NCBI GenBank assembly: GCA_007280275.1
Contig: QYQB01000036.1
Span: forward strand, 1 to 37,567
Direction of reading: 5' to 3'
Source: a bacterium
Lineage (GTDB): Bacteria > Bacteroidota > Ignavibacteria > UBA10030
DNA length: 37,567 nucleotides
Shown here: one piece after another, positions 2,234 through 13,585 of the stretch
Layout: each line of letters starts with the position of its first letter
Numbering within the stretch: position 1 is the stretch's first letter
Translations under genes and position numbers: made by a program
Notes under the pieces: model-generated
Databases searched by the model: none
The model's input: the letters and a program-made list of their open reading frames with translations, nothing else
Told to the model about the DNA's origin: nothing

Positions 2234-2357
2234 AGAGGGGCACGAGAATATCGACAATTGTTAGAGGCCGAAGTACCGCGAGAGAAGTTGCAGCGTGAGT
2301 CACTCTAACAATGCGTGTTGGCCGAATTCATTGCGTTAGGGTGAATTCGGTTTTTTT
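2234..2357 (+). ncRNA. Candidate structured small RNA or attenuator leader
   Basis: Between a strong promoter and the barrel gene lies a roughly 124-nt segment that contains no plausible gene. It can form a perfect 10-bp stem, ATTGTTAGAG (2257-2266) with CTCTAACAAT (2303-2312), around a 36-nt purine-rich loop, and CACG (2241-2244) can extend it by pairing with CGTG (2314-2317) across an asymmetric internal loop. It ends in a textbook terminator. I do not recognise a known riboswitch or RNA family. It may be a free small RNA, or a leader controlling the downstream outer-membrane gene. Confidence 0.45.
2322..2357 (+). terminator. Strong intrinsic terminator upstream of the barrel gene
   Basis: A perfect 9-bp stem, CCGAATTCA (2322-2330) with TGAATTCGG (2342-2350), has an 11-nt loop and is followed at once by seven T (2351-2357). 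It lies 34 nt before the ATG of the next gene, so it either ends a small RNA or acts as an attenuator. Confidence 0.85.
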
Positions 2358-2391
2358 GTTTCATGTCCTTTCATTGCAAAGGGAAATAGCC

Positions 2392-3414
2392 ATGCGAATG
2401 TTCAGGAACGGTGTATTGCTTGTGTTCCTGCTGTGTTCTGTCTCTGGTGCTCAAACGGTCGCGAAGTTTGCCGGAGAGTTTATGGCAATCGGTGTTGGTG
2501 GCCGCGCTCTTGGACTTGGCGGTGCGCACGTCGCGTTGGTCAGCGATGCGACAGCCGGCTACTGGAACCCGGCCGCGCTTGCGCGCATCGGTTACCCCGA
2601 AGGCATAGTCATGCACGACGAGCGCTTTGGAAGCCTCATCAGTTTTGACTTTGCCAGCGTGGCTGTTCCGTATGGTTTGGATCAGAGCCTGGGATTGAGC
2701 CTTCTGCGGCTTGGAGTGGACGGAATTCCAGACACCCGGAAGGCCTGGGTTGACAACAACAGCAATGGCATTTTCGACGATGTCGATCGTCTTGATTACG
2801 ACAAGGTCACCTATTTCAACGCAGCGGACTGGGCGCTATATTTCACATACGCAAAACGGTCGTCATCCAACTTCATGTACGGAGCCAACGTCAAGATAAT
2901 CCGACGCAATCTCGCCGATCAATCTGCCATCGGGATTGGATTTGATGTCGGCGCGCTCTACTCGCCGATGGCGGACCTCTACCTTGGCATCAACGCCCAG
3001 GATGTTACGACAACGCTCGTGGCATGGAGTACGGGACGAAATGAGCTGGTTTCTCCGACGTTGAAAATTGGAGCGGCCTATAGTATCGAAGCTCTTGGAG
3101 GACGGTTCACTCCGGTGGTCGATGCCGATGTACGCTTTGAGAACAGGCGTTTTTCTTCTGTGGCCAATTTGGGTGCGGTGAGCTTCGATCCTCACGCGGG
3201 ATTGGAATTTGATTACAAGAAAACAGTGGCATTACGTGTGGGATACAACGACGTCAAGCAACTCACGCTCGGAGCCGGGGTCCATCTTCGAATGCTCGAT
3301 GTCGATTACTCTTTTGCCAAATTCACGGCGGACGAAACCCTGGGAAATACACACCGCATCTCATTGCGGTTTGTTCTGCAGGATGACAGATTCGGGAGGG
3401 CGCCTACGCAATAA
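2392..3414 (+). CDS. PorV/PorQ-family outer-membrane beta-barrel protein
   Basis: A 340-residue exported protein. An upstream ATG at 2311 lies in frame but would put the terminator hairpin inside the gene; the ATG at 2392 has an AAGGGA site 7 nt upstream and starts a clear signal peptide (MRMFRNGVLLVFLLCSVSGAQ). The mature start carries the family hallmark GVGGRALGLGGAHVAL followed by SDATAGYWNPAALA. The rest alternates amphipathic strands (GYNDVKQLTLGAGVHL, HRISLRFVLQ) as expected of a barrel. Members of this family include PorV and PorQ of the type IX secretion system, but many paralogues have unknown jobs, and no other type IX gene is visible here. It stands alone on its strand. Confidence 0.82.
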   Translation: MRMFRNGVLLVFLLCSVSGAQTVAKFAGEFMAIGVGGRALGLGGAHVALVSDATAGYWNPAALARIGYPEGIVMHDERFGSLISFDFASVAVPYGLDQSLGLSLLRLGVDGIPDTRKAWVDNNSNGIFDDVDRLDYDKVTYFNAADWALYFTYAKRSSSNFMYGANVKIIRRNLADQSAIGIGFDVGALYSPMADLYLGINAQDVTTTLVAWSTGRNELVSPTLKIGAAYSIEALGGRFTPVVDADVRFENRRFSSVANLGAVSFDPHAGLEFDYKKTVALRVGYNDVKQLTLGAGVHLRMLDVDYSFAKFTADETLGNTHRISLRFVLQDDRFGRAPTQ

Positions 3415-3712
3415 CAGAGCCAGAGACACCTTCCTTTGTGCGTTACAACCAACCCGAGGCCGAGTAAACCACCATTGAGACGCTGAAAACATCAATTCAA
3501 TTGATGTACGGCCTTCGCCGAACCTCTATCACAGAACCGGCCGCCGCAATTCGCCGGGTTCCCCTCGAACAACATTAAGCCGCAGCCCCCCCCACGCAAA
3601 CAGCCTCTCGGAATCGTCGTGCCAGGAGCTTGTTAAGTATATCATAGAAACGGCGAAGCCGGAAAGTGCTTCTTTCCGGCTTCACTTCTTAAAGAGTTCT
3701 GTTTGGATTGGG
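3415..3712. other. Convergent intergenic region with no gene
   Basis: This 298-bp gap lies between the convergent barrel gene and the adenylate cyclase gene. It holds a C8 run near 3586-3593 and the hairpin at 3655-3683. I see no gene, repeat or RNA in the rest. Confidence 0.6.
3655..3683. terminator. Long perfect hairpin between convergent genes
   Basis: GAAGCCGGAAAG (3655-3666) and CTTTCCGGCTTC (3672-3683) form a perfect 12-bp stem with a 5-nt loop. It lies 30 nt past the cyclase stop and about 240 nt past the barrel gene stop. The T-rich tail is weak on both sides, so it may end transcripts in both directions or stabilise their 3' ends. Confidence 0.6.
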
Positions 3713-5914
3713 TTACTTTGTTGTCATCACAAAGACCCCGGTCCAATCGGGTGGCGGCGGATTCAACTGGTACAGGCTCGCACGCTGTTCGTAAATTTCC
3801 GACACACGGCAGGTAGGATCCAACTGTCTCGCTTGCTGGAAGTATGCGATCGCCTCCTGCCAGTTTCGCTCGCGATAAAGTCGCAGGCCTTCGTGATAGA
3901 TCTCGAGTGATTGTTTCTGGTTGTCGGTCATCTGCATGTCTGCTGTTCCGAGAAGCTCCCACACCTTCACCGGTTCCGTCTTTCCTTTCACCTGGATGAG
4001 GTCGAGCTCCCGGACTGCGACCCGTCCCTTGACCTGCTGGAAGGTAAAGTCGCTGATCATGATGTTGGATCCGTACTGCTTGTTTGCCCCCTCGAGACGC
4101 GAAGCAAGGTTTACACTGTCACCAATAACAGTGTAATCGAAGCGGTCACGTCCACCCATGTTGCCGACAATCATCGTGCCGGAATTAATACCGATTCGCA
4201 CTTCCAAACCAGGCTTTCCCTCTTTCTTCCACTTTGGTCGCAATATAGCCAATCGCTTCTGCATGTCGAGTGAAGCGAGACAGGTACGCAGAGCATGATC
4301 CTTCTGAGCAATCGGCGCGCCCCAGAATGCCATGATGGCATCCCCTTCGTACTTGTCAAGGGTTCCTTCGTGCTTAAGAACGATGGTGGTCATCTCGTCC
4401 AGGTACTCATTGAGCAATTCGACCAAGCCTTCCGGTCTGGTATAAAACTGTTCTGATATTGTGGTGAAGCCCGCAATATCGGAGAAGAACACGGTCAGCT
4501 CACGCCGGTCGCCGCCGAGCTTCGCTTTTTCCGGGTTTGCCACCAGTTCGTTCACAACCGCGGCGCTGATGTACTTGCTGAAAACATTTTTGATGAGCGC
4601 TTTTTGCTGCCGTTCACCGAGGTACTGGTAGATGGCAGCGCTGAGATATGCGAGGACCACGGCAAGGCTCGGGTAGACGAAGTTCACGAGCGTCCCGTTG
4701 TTCATGAAAGAACGAACGGCAATCTCGAAGACAGCAAAGATCAGGAGCGCCACAATCGCAACGGAGGCAAATTCAAGAAGAACGACATATCGAATCTTCA
4801 ATTGTCTCACCCGGAGAATGCCGAGGAACGAAACAAGGGCAAGAAAAATCGCAAGCCCTAGCTCCAGGTTCGAATCAGCTTTGCGGATGTACTTCTGGTC
4901 AAGAACGTTCTGAATTGCCGTCGCGTGGATTTCCACCCCGTTCATAGTCTGTTGTCCCTGCAGAAGATCGGCAACGGGGATCTGATGGAAGTCGCGCTCT
5001 TCCGGCATTACCGACCCGATCAGCACGACCTTGTCTTTTACAAGCGCTTGGGTAGTTTCGTCAAACGCGTTGATATCAGATTCGTACGTTAGCTCATCCT
5101 TCGTCTTGAAGGAGGAATCATCCACGACCTCCTGGAACTTGAGATGCCGGAAGGAGCCACTCGGGCCATAGTAGTTGATCAGGAAGGAGCTGCCATCAAC
5201 GGCAGGAATGACGTGATCGCCAAGGATGAGGGATTCACCATCCACGTCGGCAACAACAGTGTCGTTGAGCTGGAAAGCAATATTCAACGCGGCAAACCCG
5301 AGTGTGGGTGTCAGGAAGTTTCCGACAGTCATCTCGGGATAGTATCGTCGGACGATATCGTCGCGATCTTTCCCGGCAATATTGGTTATACCGACGCGTC
5401 TTCCCGGCGCATAAAAAACGTTACCGTACGATCGCTCGATTGTGCTCAACCGATACCGGTCTCCACCCGTGGACTCATCAATCTTTGCGCCGAGAACAAC
5501 ATTGTTGTACTTGGCCAAGACAGCATCGAGCATTCCGTCAGACACGCTGTCGCGCTTCTCGTCAAAGGTAATATCGAGCACGATGGCGCGCGCACCAGCC
5601 CGCTCAAGATTCTCAATCACATGAGCGTAGTACGATCGCGGAAACGGAAAGGTTTCGGGAAGAGCCTTCGTATCCTCGGCTGTAATCGCGACAATGACGA
5701 CGCCGGCCTGCTCCTTCGGATTCCACCAATCGCCCGCTGCCAGTTGACGTTCATACCGCTGCTGGTATCGGTAGTCGGTTGAGAGGTGGTCTACGTTCTG
5801 TATGAAGCCGGGGTCCAAAACGCGGATAAGGGCGACAAGAATACCAATCCCTAACCCGATTCCGGTCTTAATCAGAAGTGGAAGTATGTTCTTCTTGAAG
5901 GAGTACGAGGCCAT
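3713..5914 (-). CDS. CHASE2-domain class III adenylate cyclase with C-terminal TPR
   Basis: A 733-residue membrane sensor predicted to make cAMP. In order: an N-terminal membrane segment (about 11-32); a CHASE2 extracytoplasmic domain (about 40-345, with the family pieces VVIVAITAEDT, RAGARAIVLDITF and VVLIGSV); a cluster of membrane helices (about 351-432); a class III cyclase domain (about 470-650); and a TPR-like tail (about 669-712). Active-site residues are present: metal Asp479 (FFSDIAGF) and Asp525 (YEGDAIMAF), adenine-selecting Lys521 and Asp593 (RFDYTVIGDS), and transition-state Asn602 and Arg606 (VNLASRLEG). The Lys/Asp pair favours ATP over GTP. It is the last gene of a four-gene operon, 21 nt after the beta-barrel gene. 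CHASE2 often occurs beside FecR domains, as here. The enzyme call is firm; the signal sensed is unknown. Confidence 0.93.
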   Translation of the reverse strand: MASYSFKKNILPLLIKTGIGLGIGILVALIRVLDPGFIQNVDHLSTDYRYQQRYERQLAAGDWWNPKEQAGVVIVAITAEDTKALPETFPFPRSYYAHVIENLERAGARAIVLDITFDEKRDSVSDGMLDAVLAKYNNVVLGAKIDESTGGDRYRLSTIERSYGNVFYAPGRRVGITNIAGKDRDDIVRRYYPEMTVGNFLTPTLGFAALNIAFQLNDTVVADVDGESLILGDHVIPAVDGSSFLINYYGPSGSFRHLKFQEVVDDSSFKTKDELTYESDINAFDETTQALVKDKVVLIGSVMPEERDFHQIPVADLLQGQQTMNGVEIHATAIQNVLDQKYIRKADSNLELGLAIFLALVSFLGILRVRQLKIRYVVLLEFASVAIVALLIFAVFEIAVRSFMNNGTLVNFVYPSLAVVLAYLSAAIYQYLGERQQKALIKNVFSKYISAAVVNELVANPEKAKLGGDRRELTVFFSDIAGFTTISEQFYTRPEGLVELLNEYLDEMTTIVLKHEGTLDKYEGDAIMAFWGAPIAQKDHALRTCLASLDMQKRLAILRPKWKKEGKPGLEVRIGINSGTMIVGNMGGRDRFDYTVIGDSVNLASRLEGANKQYGSNIMISDFTFQQVKGRVAVRELDLIQVKGKTEPVKVWELLGTADMQMTDNQKQSLEIYHEGLRLYRERNWQEAIAYFQQARQLDPTCRVSEIYEQRASLYQLNPPPPDWTGVFVMTTK

Positions 5915-5935
5915 AGAGCCCTTTCAGCAATCGAC

Positions 5936-8470
5936 TCAGAAGTTGAAGCGATAAATGAGGCTCATGATGTTGTCGTTCTTGAACTTCTCGCCGGTCAGGA
6001 GGTTTGTCCCGCTGTTCAGGATGAGATCGTACTGAAACATCAGGGCATGATTTTCTGTGACCGAATAATCGAGGCCCCCCTGGAGCAGCGTGCGTTTCAG
6101 GTCGCCGAACGTCGAGTTGTAACTCGCGGCGAGTCGCAACTTGTCATTGATGAGTCGATATTGAAGGTTGGCCGAGAGCGATGAAATTTTGAGAAGGGTT
6201 TCAAGTATTTGAGATTTTGCATTATCCGGTATCAGAAGCTGCTGGCTCTTGGTTTCCCCCGTGCTGAAGGTGATCGTCGTTTGCAGGGGGAAGGAAAACA
6301 CGCTCGTTAACGCGCCGAAGTACATGTTATTTGTCTGGTCACGTTTGTTGAGAGTGTTGTCTTTCTTGTTTGCGATGTTGGCTCCCATCGAGAGGTTGTG
6401 TCGTGCACCGGCGACGAAGTCATAGTTGACCTGAGCCGAGATCCTGGCTAGAGCGTCGTCTGCTATATTCAACTCTGTGTTGTTGGGTTTGGTGAGATCC
6501 TTCTTTGCATCGTTTTTGCGGTTGTTGCTTCCATAGCCGAGCGTGAATGACGGCCAGTCGTTGGCCGGGTACAGCGTGAGCGAGGAGTTGAGATAATCGT
6601 ACGTGGTGGTGTAGACCTTTGTCTGGGCGGTATTGTCTTTGCGTTGTTCGTAGGAGACGCTGAGAAGCACCCGGTTCGAAAACATTCGGATTCTGTCAGA
6701 AACCGCAAGGCCCTGGACGTCGGCCTGCAGGAACTCATTGCCGAACGACGTATACGTTGCACCGCGCTGATAGTACTGTGCCCTGATAAAGTTGTTGAAG
6801 TAATTCATCGTCAGCGTGCCTTCGTAGGCCAGGGCTGGCAAGCCCGTACCCACAGGGTTGAGGGGGGTAAGATATTCGTTGATCGTGATAATCTTCGATG
6901 CAATATCGGCGATCTTTCTGATATCATCTGACTGCTTCTGCCGATCAGCTTTCTCCGACGGGGTGAGAGTTGGATCGAATTTCCCGGCCAACAGGTCATA
7001 GTCATAATCTGAAAAATTCCCCCGGGCGATGTTGTTGTTCATCAGGCTCAGCGAAGCTTGAGCGTCGATCCGGAATTTCTGGTTGTCGAACGCAATCATC
7101 ATGTCTGCTCCGCCAACGAAATTCTCCTGTGGGCGGATTCCGTACCGGATGGATCCAGCGTCATCTTTAGACTTCATGTACGTGAACCCCAACTGGAAAT
7201 TCTCGCCGGCACCAAAACTGGGCCGGATGGCAAGGAAGTTGCGAGTGAATGTTCCGGAGTTAAATACGACGTACTTGCCGGGTGTCGTTTGGAGAGAATT
7301 TTCCGGGCGGGTGTTGAGCGCCGACGAGTCAACCTTCCCACCTACCAGATAGTTCAGCGACGAATCAGCCTTTCCGGTGTAGTTCAGCAGGGGAGAACCG
7401 TCGAGGTTGCGTGTGATGTCGCCGTAGGAAACATCGACGTTGAAGAATTTCAGAGACAAGGTTGCGCTGACGCCGCGGACACGCTTACCGCTGACGATAT
7501 AGCTTGGAAATTTTGGATAGGCATCGCCGTACTGAACCTTCAGAAAGTCAAGATCTGCGTACGCGAGCAGTCGGTTCTGGGGCTGGCGGTCGGGTTTTTC
7601 CTCGTTGGTCATCAGCATGTTGGCGCCGAAATTCAACGATCGGTAGTTGCCATTGAAGCGGAGTTGGCCGCGCGTAAAGGTGCTTACCGTGGTGCCGATA
7701 TCTTCCCGTCGATATTCGGCCTGTCCGTCGATGCCCAGCCGGAAGCGCTCTTCTGTGGCCTCGATCGCCGATGCTGTTGAGAGGTTAAAATTTGATTCGA
7801 GCGTGTGATACAGTGCCCCCTTCTTGTCGTACAACTGAACGCGTATGAATTGCACACCAAGAGAGAGGGGGCGGGAGAAGTTCGCGGGGCTGAAAAGAAT
7901 GACATCGTCGCTGAAAATCGCCATTGACGTAACATCGATGCCGTTGAGAAACAACTTGGTTGCCTTCGTCTCGACGTTGTCTGAAGCATAGAACAAGGAT
8001 ACGGCAATCACAAGGTCTTCCGAGGCGACAGTCTCACCCTGCTCGGGGCTGAGCATGCGCGCTTCCAGGTTCTTGGGATCGATGGGTTTGATTGTTGCTT
8101 TCAGAGGATTCACCTGTGGATTTTCAAGCGGGTACGTTTCTGTCCGTCCGCCAGAAAGTTCGGCTTGGATATAGTACTCGATATACGGAGGGTTGACAAA
8201 TTCAGCACCAAGCGTCGTTGTTGCGCTGTTGCCGGCGAGGAGCATGTCCAGTTGTTTGAACTCGCTCTCGCCGAAACCGCGGTACTTGAGAACAACACGC
8301 TCAACACCCCCACTCGGGGAGAATTCAACGCTGATGGGTAGCGGTTGATTCTGGTTGACAACAGGTACATTGGCGCGCACGATGACGGACGTGCCTTGTG
8401 CCTGTACAGAAACGAAAGCGAAGGTCAATAGACCGAGAACGAAACCGCAGACCAGAAGTGTGCGCTTCAT
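5936..8470 (-). CDS. Large outer-membrane beta-barrel protein with N-terminal Ig-like domains
   Basis: An 844-residue exported protein of no family I can name. The frame is open to 8602, but the ATG at 8470 starts an obvious signal peptide (MKRTLLVCGFVLGLLTFAF, cleavage after QAQ) with a GAGGA site upstream. Residues about 26-130 look like an Ig-like domain related to the C-terminal domain of the FecR protein encoded next door; about 135-235 is a second beta-sandwich with an SPEQGETV opening; from about 240 to the end there are many alternating strands with tyrosine-rich turns. The protein ends in LIYRFNF, an aromatic C-terminal strand typical of substrates of the Bam assembly machine. It lies between FecR and the CHASE2 cyclase, so it may be the outer-membrane part of the same system. 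Barrel topology is inferred; no ligand can be named. Confidence 0.72.
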   Translation of the reverse strand: MKRTLLVCGFVLGLLTFAFVSVQAQGTSVIVRANVPVVNQNQPLPISVEFSPSGGVERVVLKYRGFGESEFKQLDMLLAGNSATTTLGAEFVNPPYIEYYIQAELSGGRTETYPLENPQVNPLKATIKPIDPKNLEARMLSPEQGETVASEDLVIAVSLFYASDNVETKATKLFLNGIDVTSMAIFSDDVILFSPANFSRPLSLGVQFIRVQLYDKKGALYHTLESNFNLSTASAIEATEERFRLGIDGQAEYRREDIGTTVSTFTRGQLRFNGNYRSLNFGANMLMTNEEKPDRQPQNRLLAYADLDFLKVQYGDAYPKFPSYIVSGKRVRGVSATLSLKFFNVDVSYGDITRNLDGSPLLNYTGKADSSLNYLVGGKVDSSALNTRPENSLQTTPGKYVVFNSGTFTRNFLAIRPSFGAGENFQLGFTYMKSKDDAGSIRYGIRPQENFVGGADMMIAFDNQKFRIDAQASLSLMNNNIARGNFSDYDYDLLAGKFDPTLTPSEKADRQKQSDDIRKIADIASKIITINEYLTPLNPVGTGLPALAYEGTLTMNYFNNFIRAQYYQRGATYTSFGNEFLQADVQGLAVSDRIRMFSNRVLLSVSYEQRKDNTAQTKVYTTTYDYLNSSLTLYPANDWPSFTLGYGSNNRKNDAKKDLTKPNNTELNIADDALARISAQVNYDFVAGARHNLSMGANIANKKDNTLNKRDQTNNMYFGALTSVFSFPLQTTITFSTGETKSQQLLIPDNAKSQILETLLKISSLSANLQYRLINDKLRLAASYNSTFGDLKRTLLQGGLDYSVTENHALMFQYDLILNSGTNLLTGEKFKNDNIMSLIYRFNF

Positions 8471-8661
8471 GGGGAATCCTCTATCTGAAGATGAATGGTT
8501 GGAGAGGGTCAAATCCTGTTCGGATCGTCGGGAACAATCGGTGTACGAAAGAACAGCAGATTCCAACACGGCAGTGTTGAAACCTGCTGTCCAATTTATC
8601 AAACACAGCGTCGAGAAGCAATCAACCCGATCATTAAATGAGCCATCGAAGAGAGTGACCG
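8471..8661. other. Spacer within the envelope operon
   Basis: A 191-bp gap separates the FecR and beta-barrel genes, much longer than the other spacings of this operon (21-24 nt). I see no clear promoter, terminator or gene in it. It could hold an internal promoter or RNA-processing site, but nothing in the sequence decides this. Confidence 0.35.
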
Positions 8662-9792
8662 CTACTCTATATAGGAGATCTTAATGTACTTCAGCGTGCC
8701 ACCGGGGTCATTGACAGGTACGAGTATTTCAACCGTCCTCGGCTTGACCGGCAATGTATAAGGGTTCGATTCCGGGCTGTCTTCCGGGAACGTGTATGAT
8801 TTGCCGTCTGCGCCGAGCATGGTAATATAGTACTCAAAGGTCTTCGTCGCACCAGCCCGCACTTCACCGCCTGGAACGTCAACCGTTGCGTTGTCTGCAG
8901 AGACATTCAGGGTGGCCTGCTTGAATGTGGGGTCTCCCTGGATTCTGTAACGGAGTGCTCCTTGCGTTATCTCTGTTGGTTTGTTGACAAGGCTGATCTG
9001 GAATCGGACGCCCTGGCCCGAAGTAAGCATCACGCTCGGCAACGAAAGTGTGAACTTGGCGGCAGCCGGTTGTCCGCCCCCCGTGCCGGTCGTATCGCGT
9101 CGCGTGCCCGTGCTGTCGGTGCCGCCACCGGTTCCGCCTGTGCCGCCACCACCTCCACCCTGATTGAGGTTCGAGTTGGGATCGTTGTTGTTGAGATCGT
9201 TTTGGTTGGCCCTACCCTTACCGACATTTCCGCTGGTGTCTGCTCTTCCCGTCTCTCCTGCTCCTACAGTCGTAGACTGGTTGGACCTTGTACTCCGGAA
9301 CTCGGCGCTTCCGACAATGATCGTAATGTCAGCTTCACCGACAGCGGGATCGAATCCCGTTCCGCCTTCCGTTCCGCGAATGGAAGCCACAGAAATGGGG
9401 GAGGTAAAGCGAAATTGCTCGGTTTGCTGTTTTTTTACACCGAACGACACGCGGCCTCTCTCGATGTACACATCACGGTCTACGATTTGCCTTCCCTGCA
9501 TTTGTCCGGTGATCGTGATGATCGATTTTTCACGCACGGCGACCTTCGACTGATCGGCAAAAAGAATCATTGCGAAGGATTTTTCACCGGTGCGCACCTC
9601 TTGTCCCGACTTCAATTGGTCTGTCGTGACAGCTTTTGACCAACCGGTTGTCGATTTGCGCTCGACATCTCGTACAACCTTAATAATATGAGCCGAGATA
9701 TCGCGCTTGTCCTGCTGAAAATTCCATGCCGGAGCCGCGAGAAGCGCAGCAACGGCAATAATGACAACGAGAACAAATGATCGCTTATTCAT
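8662..9792 (-). CDS. Secreted FecR-domain protein with Gly-rich linker and C-terminal Ig-like domain
   Basis: A 376-residue exported protein. Order: signal peptide or anchor (about 1-24, SFVLVVIIAVAALLAAPAW); FecR domain (about 60-160) with SGQEVRTGEKSFAMI, the ADQSKVAVREKS strand and the hallmark SPISVASIRGTEGG; a low-complexity linker rich in Gly, Thr and Asn (about 185-245); then an Ig-like domain (about 250-376). Classical FecR is a membrane anti-sigma factor that relays a signal from a TonB receptor, but this protein has no cytoplasmic anti-sigma region and no sigma-factor gene is nearby, so it is better seen as a periplasmic FecR-type ligand or scaffold protein. Its C-terminal domain resembles the first domain of the barrel protein next door. 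The gene follows the secreted unknown by 24 nt. Confidence 0.82.
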   Translation of the reverse strand: MNKRSFVLVVIIAVAALLAAPAWNFQQDKRDISAHIIKVVRDVERKSTTGWSKAVTTDQLKSGQEVRTGEKSFAMILFADQSKVAVREKSIITITGQMQGRQIVDRDVYIERGRVSFGVKKQQTEQFRFTSPISVASIRGTEGGTGFDPAVGEADITIIVGSAEFRSTRSNQSTTVGAGETGRADTSGNVGKGRANQNDLNNNDPNSNLNQGGGGGGTGGTGGGTDSTGTRRDTTGTGGGQPAAAKFTLSLPSVMLTSGQGVRFQISLVNKPTEITQGALRYRIQGDPTFKQATLNVSADNATVDVPGGEVRAGATKTFEYYITMLGADGKSYTFPEDSPESNPYTLPVKPRTVEILVPVNDPGGTLKYIKISYIE

Positions 9793-9816
9793 AAGAGCGT
9801 TCCTCTATACGAAAAG

Positions 9817-10965
9817 TTATTCGGTTCCAACGGAGACGGTGACCTGTGTTCCTTTCTGAGTCAACTCAGCAAGCTTCTGAAGCAAATCGGAGATTTCAAG
9901 ACGAGTGCTCGAAGTTCCGGCCTTCAGCTTGATGTAGTTGGAAGTTGAATAAGCAAGTGTATATCCACTTGAGAGCAAATTCGAGACAGTTGAACCGATC
10001 GGATCAGGGGCGTTCGTGAGAGCGTCCAGAAGGCGGGTGTAGTTCGGGTCGTTCGAAGAAACCGTGAATGAGTAGACCGCGCTTGTGCGCGTTTCTGACT
10101 GACCGCCGCCGGTTGCCAGCGAAGCCTCGATGAACCATGAATATTTCTTGCCGATCTGGAGAGGGCGACCCGCGTTGCCGGGATACAGATAGGTTACCTG
10201 GTTTATTCCTTTGAGGTTGTAGGCAAGCTCAAGACACTTCAAGCCACCCGGCTGGACAGCATCCTCAGAAGACTGCCCTGAATTCGAGTGTTCGTACACA
10301 TAAATCTTTCCTTCCTTCTGAGCGTCAAATTCGAAGATTGGATTTGACGAGGAGATCTGCCCTCCGTTTTCGGGCTTTATGAGGTTGAGGTTGACCTCCC
10401 GAGCCGACGCCGCGATGATTTCAATGCGTTTCTCGGCCGGAGATTTCAATCCCAGTCCTCTGCCGTTGCTGTCAAAGAGCCGGAGCGTCAGGATATAGGT
10501 GCCCGGAGGAGCCGATCCAACACCCTCAGTAACCTTCTTCGCAAGATCATCAACACAACCGCTTTGCCTCGAGAGATCGATGCCGATGCCACCGCCGGTA
10601 AAATCGTTTGCACCAAGGGTCTTCTGCCCTGTCACCAGGAATTTCTTGGTCTTCGCCCAGGCGATCTCACCGCTGCAACTGGCGAGATCTTTGATGTTTA
10701 CACCCGTAACCGTCGCTTCCAGGTACACTTCGGTGGGTGTGGCGTTGGGAGCAATAATGGTGAGGCTTTGGCCCGCAACCGGCTTGAGTTTTCTGTCAAC
10801 GCCGACATAGTTCGAAAGCATCAACACATCCGTATCCGGCATGTTGAGAACGACTTCCCACTGCGCATGCGATGCCGATGGGGTGAATACGGTGAGTAAC
10901 GAAGCTAACGCGAGGGGAATGATGAAACATGATAATACTGTTCCCCCCCCCAAGAATTTTTTCAT
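9817..10965 (-). CDS. Secreted protein of unknown function, first gene of the FecR/CHASE2 operon
   Basis: I do not recognise this 382-residue protein. It has a signal peptide (hydrophobic to about residue 34, ending SASHAQ), then several beta-rich stretches, including a segment ending TYILTLRLFDSNGRG and an Fn3-like or Ig-like piece around KYSWFIEASLATGG and YSFTVSS. The C-terminal 80 residues are helical, with LLDALTNAPDPIGS and LEISDLLQKLAELTQKG. Four cysteines (two in ASCSG and SGCVDD) could form disulfides outside the cytoplasm. A strong GGAGGG site precedes the ATG. Codons 5-8 (TTG GGG GGG GGA) hold a run of nine G, which could make expression prone to slippage. It heads the operon, downstream of a CRP-like site. 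Confidence 0.7.
   Translation of the reverse strand: MKKFLGGGTVLSCFIIPLALASLLTVFTPSASHAQWEVVLNMPDTDVLMLSNYVGVDRKLKPVAGQSLTIIAPNATPTEVYLEATVTGVNIKDLASCSGEIAWAKTKKFLVTGQKTLGANDFTGGGIGIDLSRQSGCVDDLAKKVTEGVGSAPPGTYILTLRLFDSNGRGLGLKSPAEKRIEIIAASAREVNLNLIKPENGGQISSSNPIFEFDAQKEGKIYVYEHSNSGQSSEDAVQPGGLKCLELAYNLKGINQVTYLYPGNAGRPLQIGKKYSWFIEASLATGGGQSETRTSAVYSFTVSSNDPNYTRLLDALTNAPDPIGSTVSNLLSSGYTLAYSTSNYIKLKAGTSSTRLEISDLLQKLAELTQKGTQVTVSVGTE
10943..10951 (-). repeat. Nine-base G homopolymer inside the signal-peptide codons
   Basis: The plus strand reads nine C in a row; in the minus-strand gene this is G9 spanning codons 5-8. One-base gain or loss would shift the frame after residue 5 to 8 and abolish the protein. 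Runs of seven G or C occur elsewhere in this window, but none as long as this and none so close to a start codon. Confidence 0.6.
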
Positions 10966-10996
10966 TGGACGTCCCTCCTGATGTGGGTGTGTACAA

Positions 10997-11039
10997 AATC
11001 TATGTTCTGCGAGGTTGAACGTGGGTGACCTTGGTCACA
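10997..11039 (-). promoter_or_regulatory. CRP-like operator and class-II promoter of the FecR/CHASE2 operon
   Basis: On the minus strand TGTGA-CCAAGG-TCACC (11039-11024) matches nine of ten positions of the CRP consensus TGTGA-N6-TCACA and has a 14-bp perfect palindromic core, GTGACC-AA-GGTCAC. A -10-like TAGATT lies at 11002-10997, placing the start of transcription near 10990. The operator centre is then at -41.5, the exact class-II activator position where it replaces a -35 box. The gene start is at 10965. Binding and cAMP dependence are inference. Confidence 0.6.
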
Positions 11040-11051
11040 CGGGATGACTGA

Positions 11052-12365
11052 TTAGAACTTGATGATGTCATTATACAGAACGAAGGCCATAAAAACAAGC
11101 AAAAGCACGAATCCCACCTGTTGGAGTGCAATCTTCACTCTCGAGGGAATCTCCCTGCGAAAGATAGCCTCGTACACAAGAAACACTGCGTGACCGCCAT
11201 CCAGCGCGGGAAAAGGAAGAAGGTTAAGAATCGCGAGATTCATGCTTAACAAAGCCATAAACCCGAGGAAATTAATGACACCCATTTCCGCGGACCGGGT
11301 CGCCATCTTGGCAATCATGATGGGTCCGGCTACCGACTTGGAGAGCGAAACACGTCCTGCGAAGATCTGGTAAATGCTCTTCAGGTTCATCCAGCTCATG
11401 TTCCATGCATCCTTGATTCCCTCGGGAAGGGCAGCCAACAGCGAGTAGCGGACGTTCTCAAGCGGGCCGTTATACATTGGCAGAAACCCGACGCCAATCT
11501 TTCCTTCAGCACTTGGTGTAAGACGAGCCTCGTTGGTTTCCCCCTCTCGTTTCCACCTGAATGTTACCTCTTTTCCGGCGTAACGTTTGACAGACTGCTG
11601 CAACGAGTGAAACGAGACGTCTTGCCCGTTGAGGTCAAGAAGAACGTCTCCCGGTTTCAGACCGGCCTGGTCGGCAGGTTTGCCGGTCTCGACGTTCGTT
11701 ACCAGGGCAACAAGTCCCGCGGGCTGCAAACCCAAACCACTCTCGAGAATCTCGGACGTCAACGGTTGTACAATATTTACGACGGTCGACTTACCATCAC
11801 GCCGGATAGTAACCACGAGATTGCCTGAAAGAGCATCTGAGTAAACCGAGTTCTCGATTTCTTCCCAGTGTGTCGCGCGTTTCCCGTTGACGTCAATAAT
11901 CACATCTCCCGTCAGGAAGCCCGCTTTCGCTGCAGGGCTCTCCGGGACTACATACCCGATCTCGGTGACCGGTTTGACGGTCTTGCCCTGATAGAAAATG
12001 ATTCCCCAGAAGATGAAAATTGCCAGGAAGATGTTCATGACGACACCGGCACAAATCACAATCATCCTCTGCCAGATCGGCTTTGAACGAAATTCCCACG
12101 GCTTTGGCTCTTCGTTCACAAAATCCGTGTCAAGGCTCTCATCCACCATGCCGGCGATCTTCACATAGCCGCCGATGGGAACCCATGAGACGCAGTAGTC
12201 GGTGTCTCCGATTTTCTTGCCGAAAGCCCGGGGTGGAAATCCAATGCTAAAACGATCCACCCGCATACCGAAGAACTTGGCGGCAAGAAAATGGCCCAGT
12301 TCGTGGACGAGCACGAGGATACCGATGACGACGAGGAAATAGAAAACCGTTGGTAAAGCTTCCAT
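11052..12365 (-). CDS. rseP: RIP metalloprotease RseP (site-2 protease)
   Basis: A 437-residue inner-membrane zinc protease that cuts membrane-bound anti-sigma factors and signal-peptide remnants within the membrane. The zinc site HELGH (residues 21-25) lies in the first membrane helix, followed by FFGMRVDRFSIGFPP. Two PDZ domains follow (about 115-275; pieces SPAAKAGFLTGDVIIDVNG and KPADQAGLKPGDVLLDLNG), then helices with NLLPFPALDGGH, whose Asp is the third zinc ligand. Length and order match the family. It lies 65 nt after dxr on the same strand, a common pairing in bacteria, and ends 86 nt before the FecR/CHASE2 operon start, so all may be read in series although that operon has its own promoter. 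Confidence 0.96.
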   Translation of the reverse strand: MEALPTVFYFLVVIGILVLVHELGHFLAAKFFGMRVDRFSIGFPPRAFGKKIGDTDYCVSWVPIGGYVKIAGMVDESLDTDFVNEEPKPWEFRSKPIWQRMIVICAGVVMNIFLAIFIFWGIIFYQGKTVKPVTEIGYVVPESPAAKAGFLTGDVIIDVNGKRATHWEEIENSVYSDALSGNLVVTIRRDGKSTVVNIVQPLTSEILESGLGLQPAGLVALVTNVETGKPADQAGLKPGDVLLDLNGQDVSFHSLQQSVKRYAGKEVTFRWKREGETNEARLTPSAEGKIGVGFLPMYNGPLENVRYSLLAALPEGIKDAWNMSWMNLKSIYQIFAGRVSLSKSVAGPIMIAKMATRSAEMGVINFLGFMALLSMNLAILNLLPFPALDGGHAVFLVYEAIFRREIPSRVKIALQQVGFVLLLVFMAFVLYNDIIKF

Positions 12366-12430: not shown

Positions 12431-13585
12431 TTACTGCAAAAGAGTTCCTACAAACTCGCGAGTTTGGTGATCAGCCTCTATAATATCCTGCAGATCCGGG
12501 TTGGACGAGGTCTTATGCAGTGTTAGCGCGCGTTCAATGACGGTCGGGATTTTGTCAAAAGAGATCTTTCGATCCAGGAACGAGTTCACTGCGACCTCAT
12601 TTGCCGCATTGAGAACGGCTGGAGCGGTACCGCCAAGCGAAAGCGCGTCGTAGGCAAGTCCCAAGCAGCGGAACTTGTGCCGGTCTGGTTCAAAGAAAGT
12701 CAAGGACCGGAGTGCAGGAAAGTCAACCCTGGCACCGTTCATCGGCCATCGCTCGGGGTAGGAGAGTGCGTACTGGATCGGCAGCTTCATGTCGGGCAAG
12801 CCAAGTTGAGCTTTCACAGAGCCGTCAACAAATTCAACCATCGAATGAATCACTGATTGAGGGTGTATGACCACCTGGATCCGGTCACCGGGCAAGCCGA
12901 ACAACCAGTGCGCCTCAATGACTTCCAGCCCCTTGTTCATGAGGGTTGCCGAATCGATGGTGATCTTGTTCCCCATCTTCCATTTTGGGTGGTTGAGCGC
13001 CTCCTCAACCGTCAGCGACGAAAAATCACCGGCAGGGATGTTCAAAAATGGTCCACCTGATGCCGTCAGGATCAGTTTTGTCACGCGAGAACGATCTTCC
13101 CCAACGAGGCATTGAAAAATCGCACTGTGCTCACTGTCTACAGGAAGAAGATCGACCCCATACTCGCGGACAAGTGAAGTTATGAGACTTCCGGCGACAA
13201 CAAGCGTTTCCTTGTTGGCAAGAGCAATCCGCTTCCGGTGCCGGATTGCCGCGACGGTAGGTTTCAGCCCGGCAAATCCCACAAGGGAACTGATAACAAC
13301 ATCAACGTCGTCGCGCGTGACCACCTGCTCGAGGCTGGCCTCTCCGGAGAGGACTTCGACAGAGCCGTCAAGACGTTTTCGCAATTCGGAAGCTTTGCCT
13401 TCATCCAACACCACTACGCCCTTCGGACGAAACCGACCGATCTGTTCTTGCAGCAGATCAATGTTCTTGTTGGTCGTCAGATATGTTGCCCGAAAGCGAT
13501 CCGGAAAACCTCCGATCACTTCCAGGCTGTTCATTCCGATCGATCCCGTGGATCCGAGGATGACGATATTTTTTTGCGCGCCCAT
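12431..13585 (-). CDS. dxr: 1-deoxy-D-xylulose 5-phosphate reductoisomerase
   Basis: A 384-residue cytoplasmic enzyme that converts 1-deoxy-D-xylulose 5-phosphate to 2-C-methyl-D-erythritol 4-phosphate with NADPH, the committed step of the MEP isoprenoid pathway. Seen: NADPH-binding GSTGSIG (11-17), VDSEHSAIFQCL with metal and substrate residues, the TASGGPF loop, HPKWKMGNKITIDSATLMNK with the active-site Lys/Asn/Ser set, and EVIEAHWLFG. Length matches the family. The MEP pathway is thus used for isoprenoids such as undecaprenyl phosphate. It is divergent from the TPR gene and followed by rseP. Confidence 0.97.
   Translation of the reverse strand: MGAQKNIVILGSTGSIGMNSLEVIGGFPDRFRATYLTTNKNIDLLQEQIGRFRPKGVVVLDEGKASELRKRLDGSVEVLSGEASLEQVVTRDDVDVVISSLVGFAGLKPTVAAIRHRKRIALANKETLVVAGSLITSLVREYGVDLLPVDSEHSAIFQCLVGEDRSRVTKLILTASGGPFLNIPAGDFSSLTVEEALNHPKWKMGNKITIDSATLMNKGLEVIEAHWLFGLPGDRIQVVIHPQSVIHSMVEFVDGSVKAQLGLPDMKLPIQYALSYPERWPMNGARVDFPALRSLTFFEPDRHKFRCLGLAYDALSLGGTAPAVLNAANEVAVNSFLDRKISFDKIPTVIERALTLHKTSSNPDLQDIIEADHQTREFVGTLLQ

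Follow-up and report, generated by a model that had tools for sequence, protein, structure and literature searches.

Four minus-strand open reading frames, which we call SEC, FECR, BAR and CYC, were called between positions 10965 and 3713 of the window (the whole 37,567-nucleotide stretch analysed here), with two same-strand neighbours upstream, in the minus-strand gene order dxr, rseP, SEC, FECR, BAR, CYC (Table 1). The host assembly comprises 3.7 Mb and is 84% complete. An earlier note on this DNA had described four same-strand genes with short spacing at two of three junctions, and both points held: gaps of 24 bp (SEC-FECR) and 21 bp (BAR-CYC) compare with 191 bp between FECR and BAR, or 59 bp if BAR is read from the TTG at 8602 at which its open frame begins, upstream of the ATG that we chose for the signal peptide it gives. 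The cluster ends at 10965 and not, as had been proposed, at 11039. A PorV/PorQ-family gene (2311-3414; NF033709 over cut-off) lies convergent with CYC and is found near CYC in many relatives, a possible link to type IX secretion.

Table 1. Coordinates of the genes and predicted RNA hairpins at the locus
Feature	Position in window	Strand	Description
dxr	12431-13585	-	TIGR00243, E 2.1e-145; same-strand neighbour upstream
rseP	11052-12365	-	TIGR00054, E 1.6e-98; same-strand neighbour upstream
SEC	10965-9817	-	382 aa; secreted, no recognised family; predicted to have two Ig-like domains followed by a small C-terminal domain of alpha/beta type
FECR	9792-8662	-	376 aa; signal peptide or N-terminal anchor, FecR domain, Gly-rich linker, C-terminal Ig-like domain
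FECR-BAR spacer	8471-8661	-	near-perfect 19-bp RNA hairpin; probable intrinsic terminator or attenuator
BAR	8470-5936	-	844 aa; predicted outer-membrane beta-barrel with two N-terminal Ig-like domains
CYC	5914-3713	-	733 aa; TM helix, CHASE2, three TM helices, class III nucleotide cyclase, C-terminal TPR-like segment
Hairpin 3' of CYC	3653-3685	-	14-bp terminator-like hairpin directly 3' of CYC; the region has 12 such hairpins and shuffles predict 10.8, so weak alone

Another aspect of this layout is how it may be transcribed. The cluster had been called an operon, but a terminator-like hairpin between FECR and BAR makes this doubtful in the window's family. The spacer hairpin has a z-score of -3.44, with 0 of 200 shuffles folding as well, and when sought as a repeated element it proved to be single-copy in the genome. 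Under a strict rule (a minimum of 8 uninterrupted pairs and of 5 G-C pairs, with a T-rich tail), terminator-like hairpins were found at the FECR-BAR junction of 16 of the 25 members of the window's family as against 0.4% of dinucleotide shuffles, and the other junctions gave 0/24 (rseP-SEC), 0/23 (SEC-FECR) and 2/28 (BAR-CYC). Across the family the position of these hairpins is kept and their sequences differ; the window's own fails the strict rule, probably because of G-U pairs and a weaker T tract. In families f2, f3 and f4, where the gaps are smaller, no such hairpin was found at this junction. In the window's family, the cluster is therefore probably expressed as two transcripts or attenuated between FECR and BAR.

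Predicted architecture of the four proteins

The most readily classified of the four products is CYC, which matches CHASE2 (PF05226, E 2e-44) and Guanylate_cyc (PF00211, E 3.5e-24), with one hydrophobic helix before CHASE2 and three after it by hydropathy, and with a C-terminal TPR match that falls below the Pfam cut-off. The catalytic set D479, K521, D525, T595, N602 and R606 is complete and invariant in 30 orthologues, in agreement with the intact catalytic residues reported earlier; we take these to be the metal (D479/D525), substrate-specifying (K521/T595) and transition-state (N602, R606) residues of class III cyclases. With a CHASE2 domain bounded by transmembrane helices, a predicted cytoplasmic catalytic domain and the full residue set, CYC reads from its sequence as a CHASE2 class III nucleotide cyclase, whose product would presumably be cAMP. 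The genome holds five CHASE2 matches and encodes a Crp-type regulator that could read cAMP. At the CYC C-terminus (3713-3800), the TPR-like segment is followed by a highly conserved PPPxDWxGVFxxxxK tail in which the terminal lysine is invariant.

BAR has no Pfam match, and specifically no Plug, STN or TonB-receptor match. Its AlphaFold2 model (64 sequences; pLDDT 82.8, pTM 0.70) comprises two Ig-like domains (residues 27-131 and 137-232) and a large predicted barrel at residues 244-844 of about 26-28 strands, a count that depends on residues 366-410. The first Ig domain aligns to that of the Porphyromonas gingivalis peptidylarginine deiminase (Z 12, about 100 residues, 25% identity). A protein 94% identical to BAR is present in Bacteroidetes bacterium isolate B4_bin.17, apparently at the same locus as in our genome G005, of the same genus as the window, and a tblastn search of a plasmid collection gave no match. 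Three further loci (L218, L219, L220) encode proteins of ~690-860 aa in which weak similarity to BAR (51-60 bits) is confined to the middle of its barrel; it is possible, judging from these matches, that they and BAR belong to a wider barrel superfamily.

The two remaining proteins also have predicted Ig-like domains. FECR carries the sole PF04773 match in the genome (residues 65-160, E 2.4e-8), and its C-terminal Ig-like domain is homologous to the first Ig domain of BAR: a BAR query matches the FECR C-terminus (8734-8970) with E 7e-4, and with 44.9 bits by profile. In many relatives FECR is shorter and lacks this domain. The FECR C-terminus (8662-8740) bears a hairpin-like motif, IxI..DxxGxxKxxxIxYxE, that is seen again in the majority of FecR versions, short and long alike. 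A Pfam search with SEC gave no match; its model (pLDDT 87.9) shows two Ig-like domains and a small C-terminal domain, and residues 34-304 have Ig-type structural matches at Z about 8-9, all of them generic Ig/FnIII folds that point to no function. Hydropathy indicates a possible signal peptide on SEC, FECR and BAR, although the segment in FECR could instead be an anchor. At one locus (L237, genome G307), a single FECR gene lies between two SEC-like genes, which suggests a duplication of SEC.

Conserved order, changing flanks and joint loss

BAR was found in 54 of 61 relatives, and further relatives in a separate collection of named records are titled Ignavibacteria, Ignavibacteriales, Melioribacter and Stygiobacter. 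The earlier note had proposed a search of related genomes for the same four-gene order, and there the proposal fared well. The block SEC-FECR-BAR-CYC, in the same order and on the same strand, is intact in 41 of the 42 testable loci of the order, i.e. those with all neighbours on the contig (the exception being L060), and in 53/57 named loci of the Ignavibacteria class (exceptions L117, L123, L159 and L164), two sets that partly hold the same organisms, so that their counts are not additive. L117 has two small ORFs and then, where the contig ends, a fragment of CYC. A third set of loci, chosen to be distant, retained the block in 25 cases out of 34, and it also occurs intact outside the class, in families f32, f43, f58 and f63.

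The genes around the block, by comparison, vary. Many genomes of the window's order have dxr-rseP beside it and other genes are found elsewhere; for instance, in many Melioribacter-type genomes it is flanked by a TPR gene and a 108-aa ORF, and family f2 (L067, L068, L071, L075) carries it without dxr-rseP, BAR and CYC being called 3 bp apart. We rejected rseP and dxr as members of the system, since their linkage is lost outside some lineages while the block stays intact.

Furthermore, the genes co-occur where they are not linked. Orthologues of CYC lie on another contig than BAR in G038 (1060 bits) and away from BAR in G106, G079 and G097 (884-885 bits). Conversely, six genomes from four families that are 91-100% complete (G007, G034, G053, G060, G281, G293) are without BAR, FECR, SEC and the CYC orthologue alike, and their cyclases score 142-495 bits only; in G007 the absence may be an assembly gap, as G022, of the same genus, carries the system. 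In families f35, f50 and f62, SEC and FECR are adjacent, apart from BAR and without a neighbouring cyclase; at several loci (L237, L238, L241) the pair lies between ORFs that resemble ftsX and queG. A divergent BAR (L184-L186, L190-L193) lies beside HIT and a short TPR protein, often with a ClpB-like gene, these neighbours having been identified by eye from N-termini. As these three families keep SEC and FECR side by side and BAR elsewhere, this shows that SEC and FECR are a pair and that the trio co-occurs without linkage; SEC adjoins FECR in all classes examined. Taken as a whole, SEC, FECR, BAR and CYC very likely form one functional system.

What the cluster may do

We lean towards reading the cluster as a trans-envelope cAMP signalling system that works like NsrA-CyaK of Sinorhizobium meliloti, with its parts on separate polypeptides. 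BAR, in the outer membrane, would sense either an external cue or the condition of the outer membrane itself, and its two periplasmic Ig domains would make contact with FECR and SEC, whose own Ig folds are related. FECR and SEC could thus bridge the periplasm and change the CHASE2 domain of CYC in the inner membrane, and this change would alter cytoplasmic cAMP, with whichever sign the response may take, for Crp-family regulators to read. The strongest guide to such a relay, by analogy, is the functional precedent with the same kind of parts, NsrA-CyaK (PMC7529298). A more specific proposal, which we put forward tentatively, is that SEC, FECR and the Ig-barrel make up an undescribed three-protein sensory complex that is built on related Ig domains, gates a CHASE2 cyclase, is found in several classes of the phylum and arose in parallel to NsrA rather than by descent from it.

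This leads us to the points against the relay. One is the hairpin lying between FECR and BAR in the window's family, and another is that no similarity was detected between BAR and the one NsrA sequence compared. A third is that the parts are not always linked: in f35, f50 and f62, SEC-FECR and BAR persist without an adjacent cyclase. It is here that another account finds room, in which BAR is a transporter or a structural porin, FECR and SEC help in the periplasm to assemble it or to dock it to the cell wall, and the cyclase only adjusts physiology to the same conditions, without being signalled to directly by BAR. The structures in the PDB that match BAR, which are barrels of a general kind (MtrB, TonB-dependent transporters, LptD), would suit such a role. 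We nonetheless regard it as unlikely, given that the CYC orthologue co-occurs with the trio also where it is not linked to it and is missing from genomes that lack the trio, and that the same kind of parts signal to cAMP in S. meliloti (PMC7529298).

The genes could also monitor stress of the outer membrane or envelope in connection with dxr-rseP, rather than sense an external ligand. In many genomes of the order those two genes immediately precede the block on its own strand and, on the assumption that the BAR N-terminus faces the periplasm, several of the long loops on the predicted outward side of the barrel are conserved, at 0.67-0.71 for 289-299, 318-330 and 570-584 (the first two at 0.71), as would befit an invariant endogenous ligand; loops 654-670, 746-754 and 820-832, on the same predicted side, are not conserved. 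The loss of the rseP-dxr linkage in f2 and several other families in which the block stays intact speaks against this account, and we find it less credible still. Finally, an MtrB-like sheath for extracellular electron transfer is a highly improbable role for BAR and was rejected: MtrB is among its best structural matches (6r2q_B, Z 14.2 over 475 residues, rmsd 5.2 A), but BtuB and other plugged, TonB-dependent barrels score equally, no CXXCH protein was found among the ORFs called in the window, and BAR is conserved together with FecR and Ig proteins and not with cytochromes.

Comparison with known envelope signalling systems

The relay that we favour rests on a principle, from FecR and barrel to a CHASE2 cyclase, that is already known. 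In the literature searched, we found no description of the split architecture with Ig domains, of the extra SEC protein or of their breadth in the phylum. The ligands of CHASE2 receptors are still called unknown (PMC10581220) and the control of these receptors is largely unknown; among the papers found, NsrA is the only outer-membrane partner with genetics, and it comes from one symbiont. A split, modular and deeply conserved version could therefore offer many natural variants for the modelling of complexes, as well as separate small proteins for reconstitution in vitro. Such a version further suggests that, in the Ignavibacteria class, input from the outer membrane to cAMP is a core trait and not an oddity of symbiosis.

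Among the known systems, FecIRA likewise combines a FecR-family periplasmic domain with an outer-membrane barrel. The cluster differs in that no anti-sigma N-domain, sigma factor or TonB receptor was found: by Pfam and hydropathy, FECR has only a hydrophobic N-terminal segment before its FecR domain and no anti-sigma N-domain, no ECF sigma gene was present among the genes scanned (675-30167), and BAR, without a plug or STN by Pfam, has an N-terminus modelled as Ig-like. The earlier view that this is not the classical FecIR circuit can thus be maintained. A further comparison is with the BiofilmReg operon of Burkholderia and with pairs of FecR proteins and CHASE2 histidine kinases (PMC5192318); here, too, a periplasmic FecR-domain protein stands beside a CHASE2 receptor, but the output is a histidine kinase and a barrel gene is absent from the operon.

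Other systems share the cyclase. In Campylobacterota, a CHASE2 adenylate cyclase shares a cluster with a FecR-domain protein that is described as lying in the outer membrane; unlike ours, this cluster also includes a cAMP phosphodiesterase and a TPR protein, and it is described from genomics only (PMC9239204). In magnetotactic bacteria, MtxA resembles the proteins of the window in having an Ig domain and in that its gene immediately precedes that of a CHASE2 cyclase; it differs in that its Ig domain is accompanied by TPRs, and the accessible part of its description mentions no barrel partner (PMC4439547). The FECR profile touches the N-terminus of MtxA weakly (E 0.26).

The nearest counterpart is NsrA-CyaK. 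In S. meliloti, perception of signal 1 requires NsrA and CyaK (PMC7529298), and sensing through NsrA raises the cAMP made by CHASE2 cyclases (PMC13001267). In the pSymB record, nsrA lies directly upstream of cyaK and ends at the base where cyaK begins; NsrA is a single chain of 1200 aa in which a FecR domain (E 2.3e-15) and TPRs are joined to a barrel region at the C-terminus, and CyaK consists of CHASE2 and a cyclase domain. No sequence similarity between BAR and NsrA was detected in an hhalign profile comparison with a single NsrA sequence, a result that speaks against direct descent of BAR from NsrA. Both loci encode a FecR domain and a barrel beside a CHASE2 class III cyclase gene on the same strand. 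However, NsrA unites FecR, TPR and barrel in one polypeptide, whereas in the window FECR and BAR have a gene each, Ig domains are found where NsrA has TPRs (no TPR was found by Pfam in FECR, BAR or SEC) and a secreted Ig protein, SEC, is added. If the analogy holds, BAR, FECR and SEC would do in three chains what NsrA does in one.
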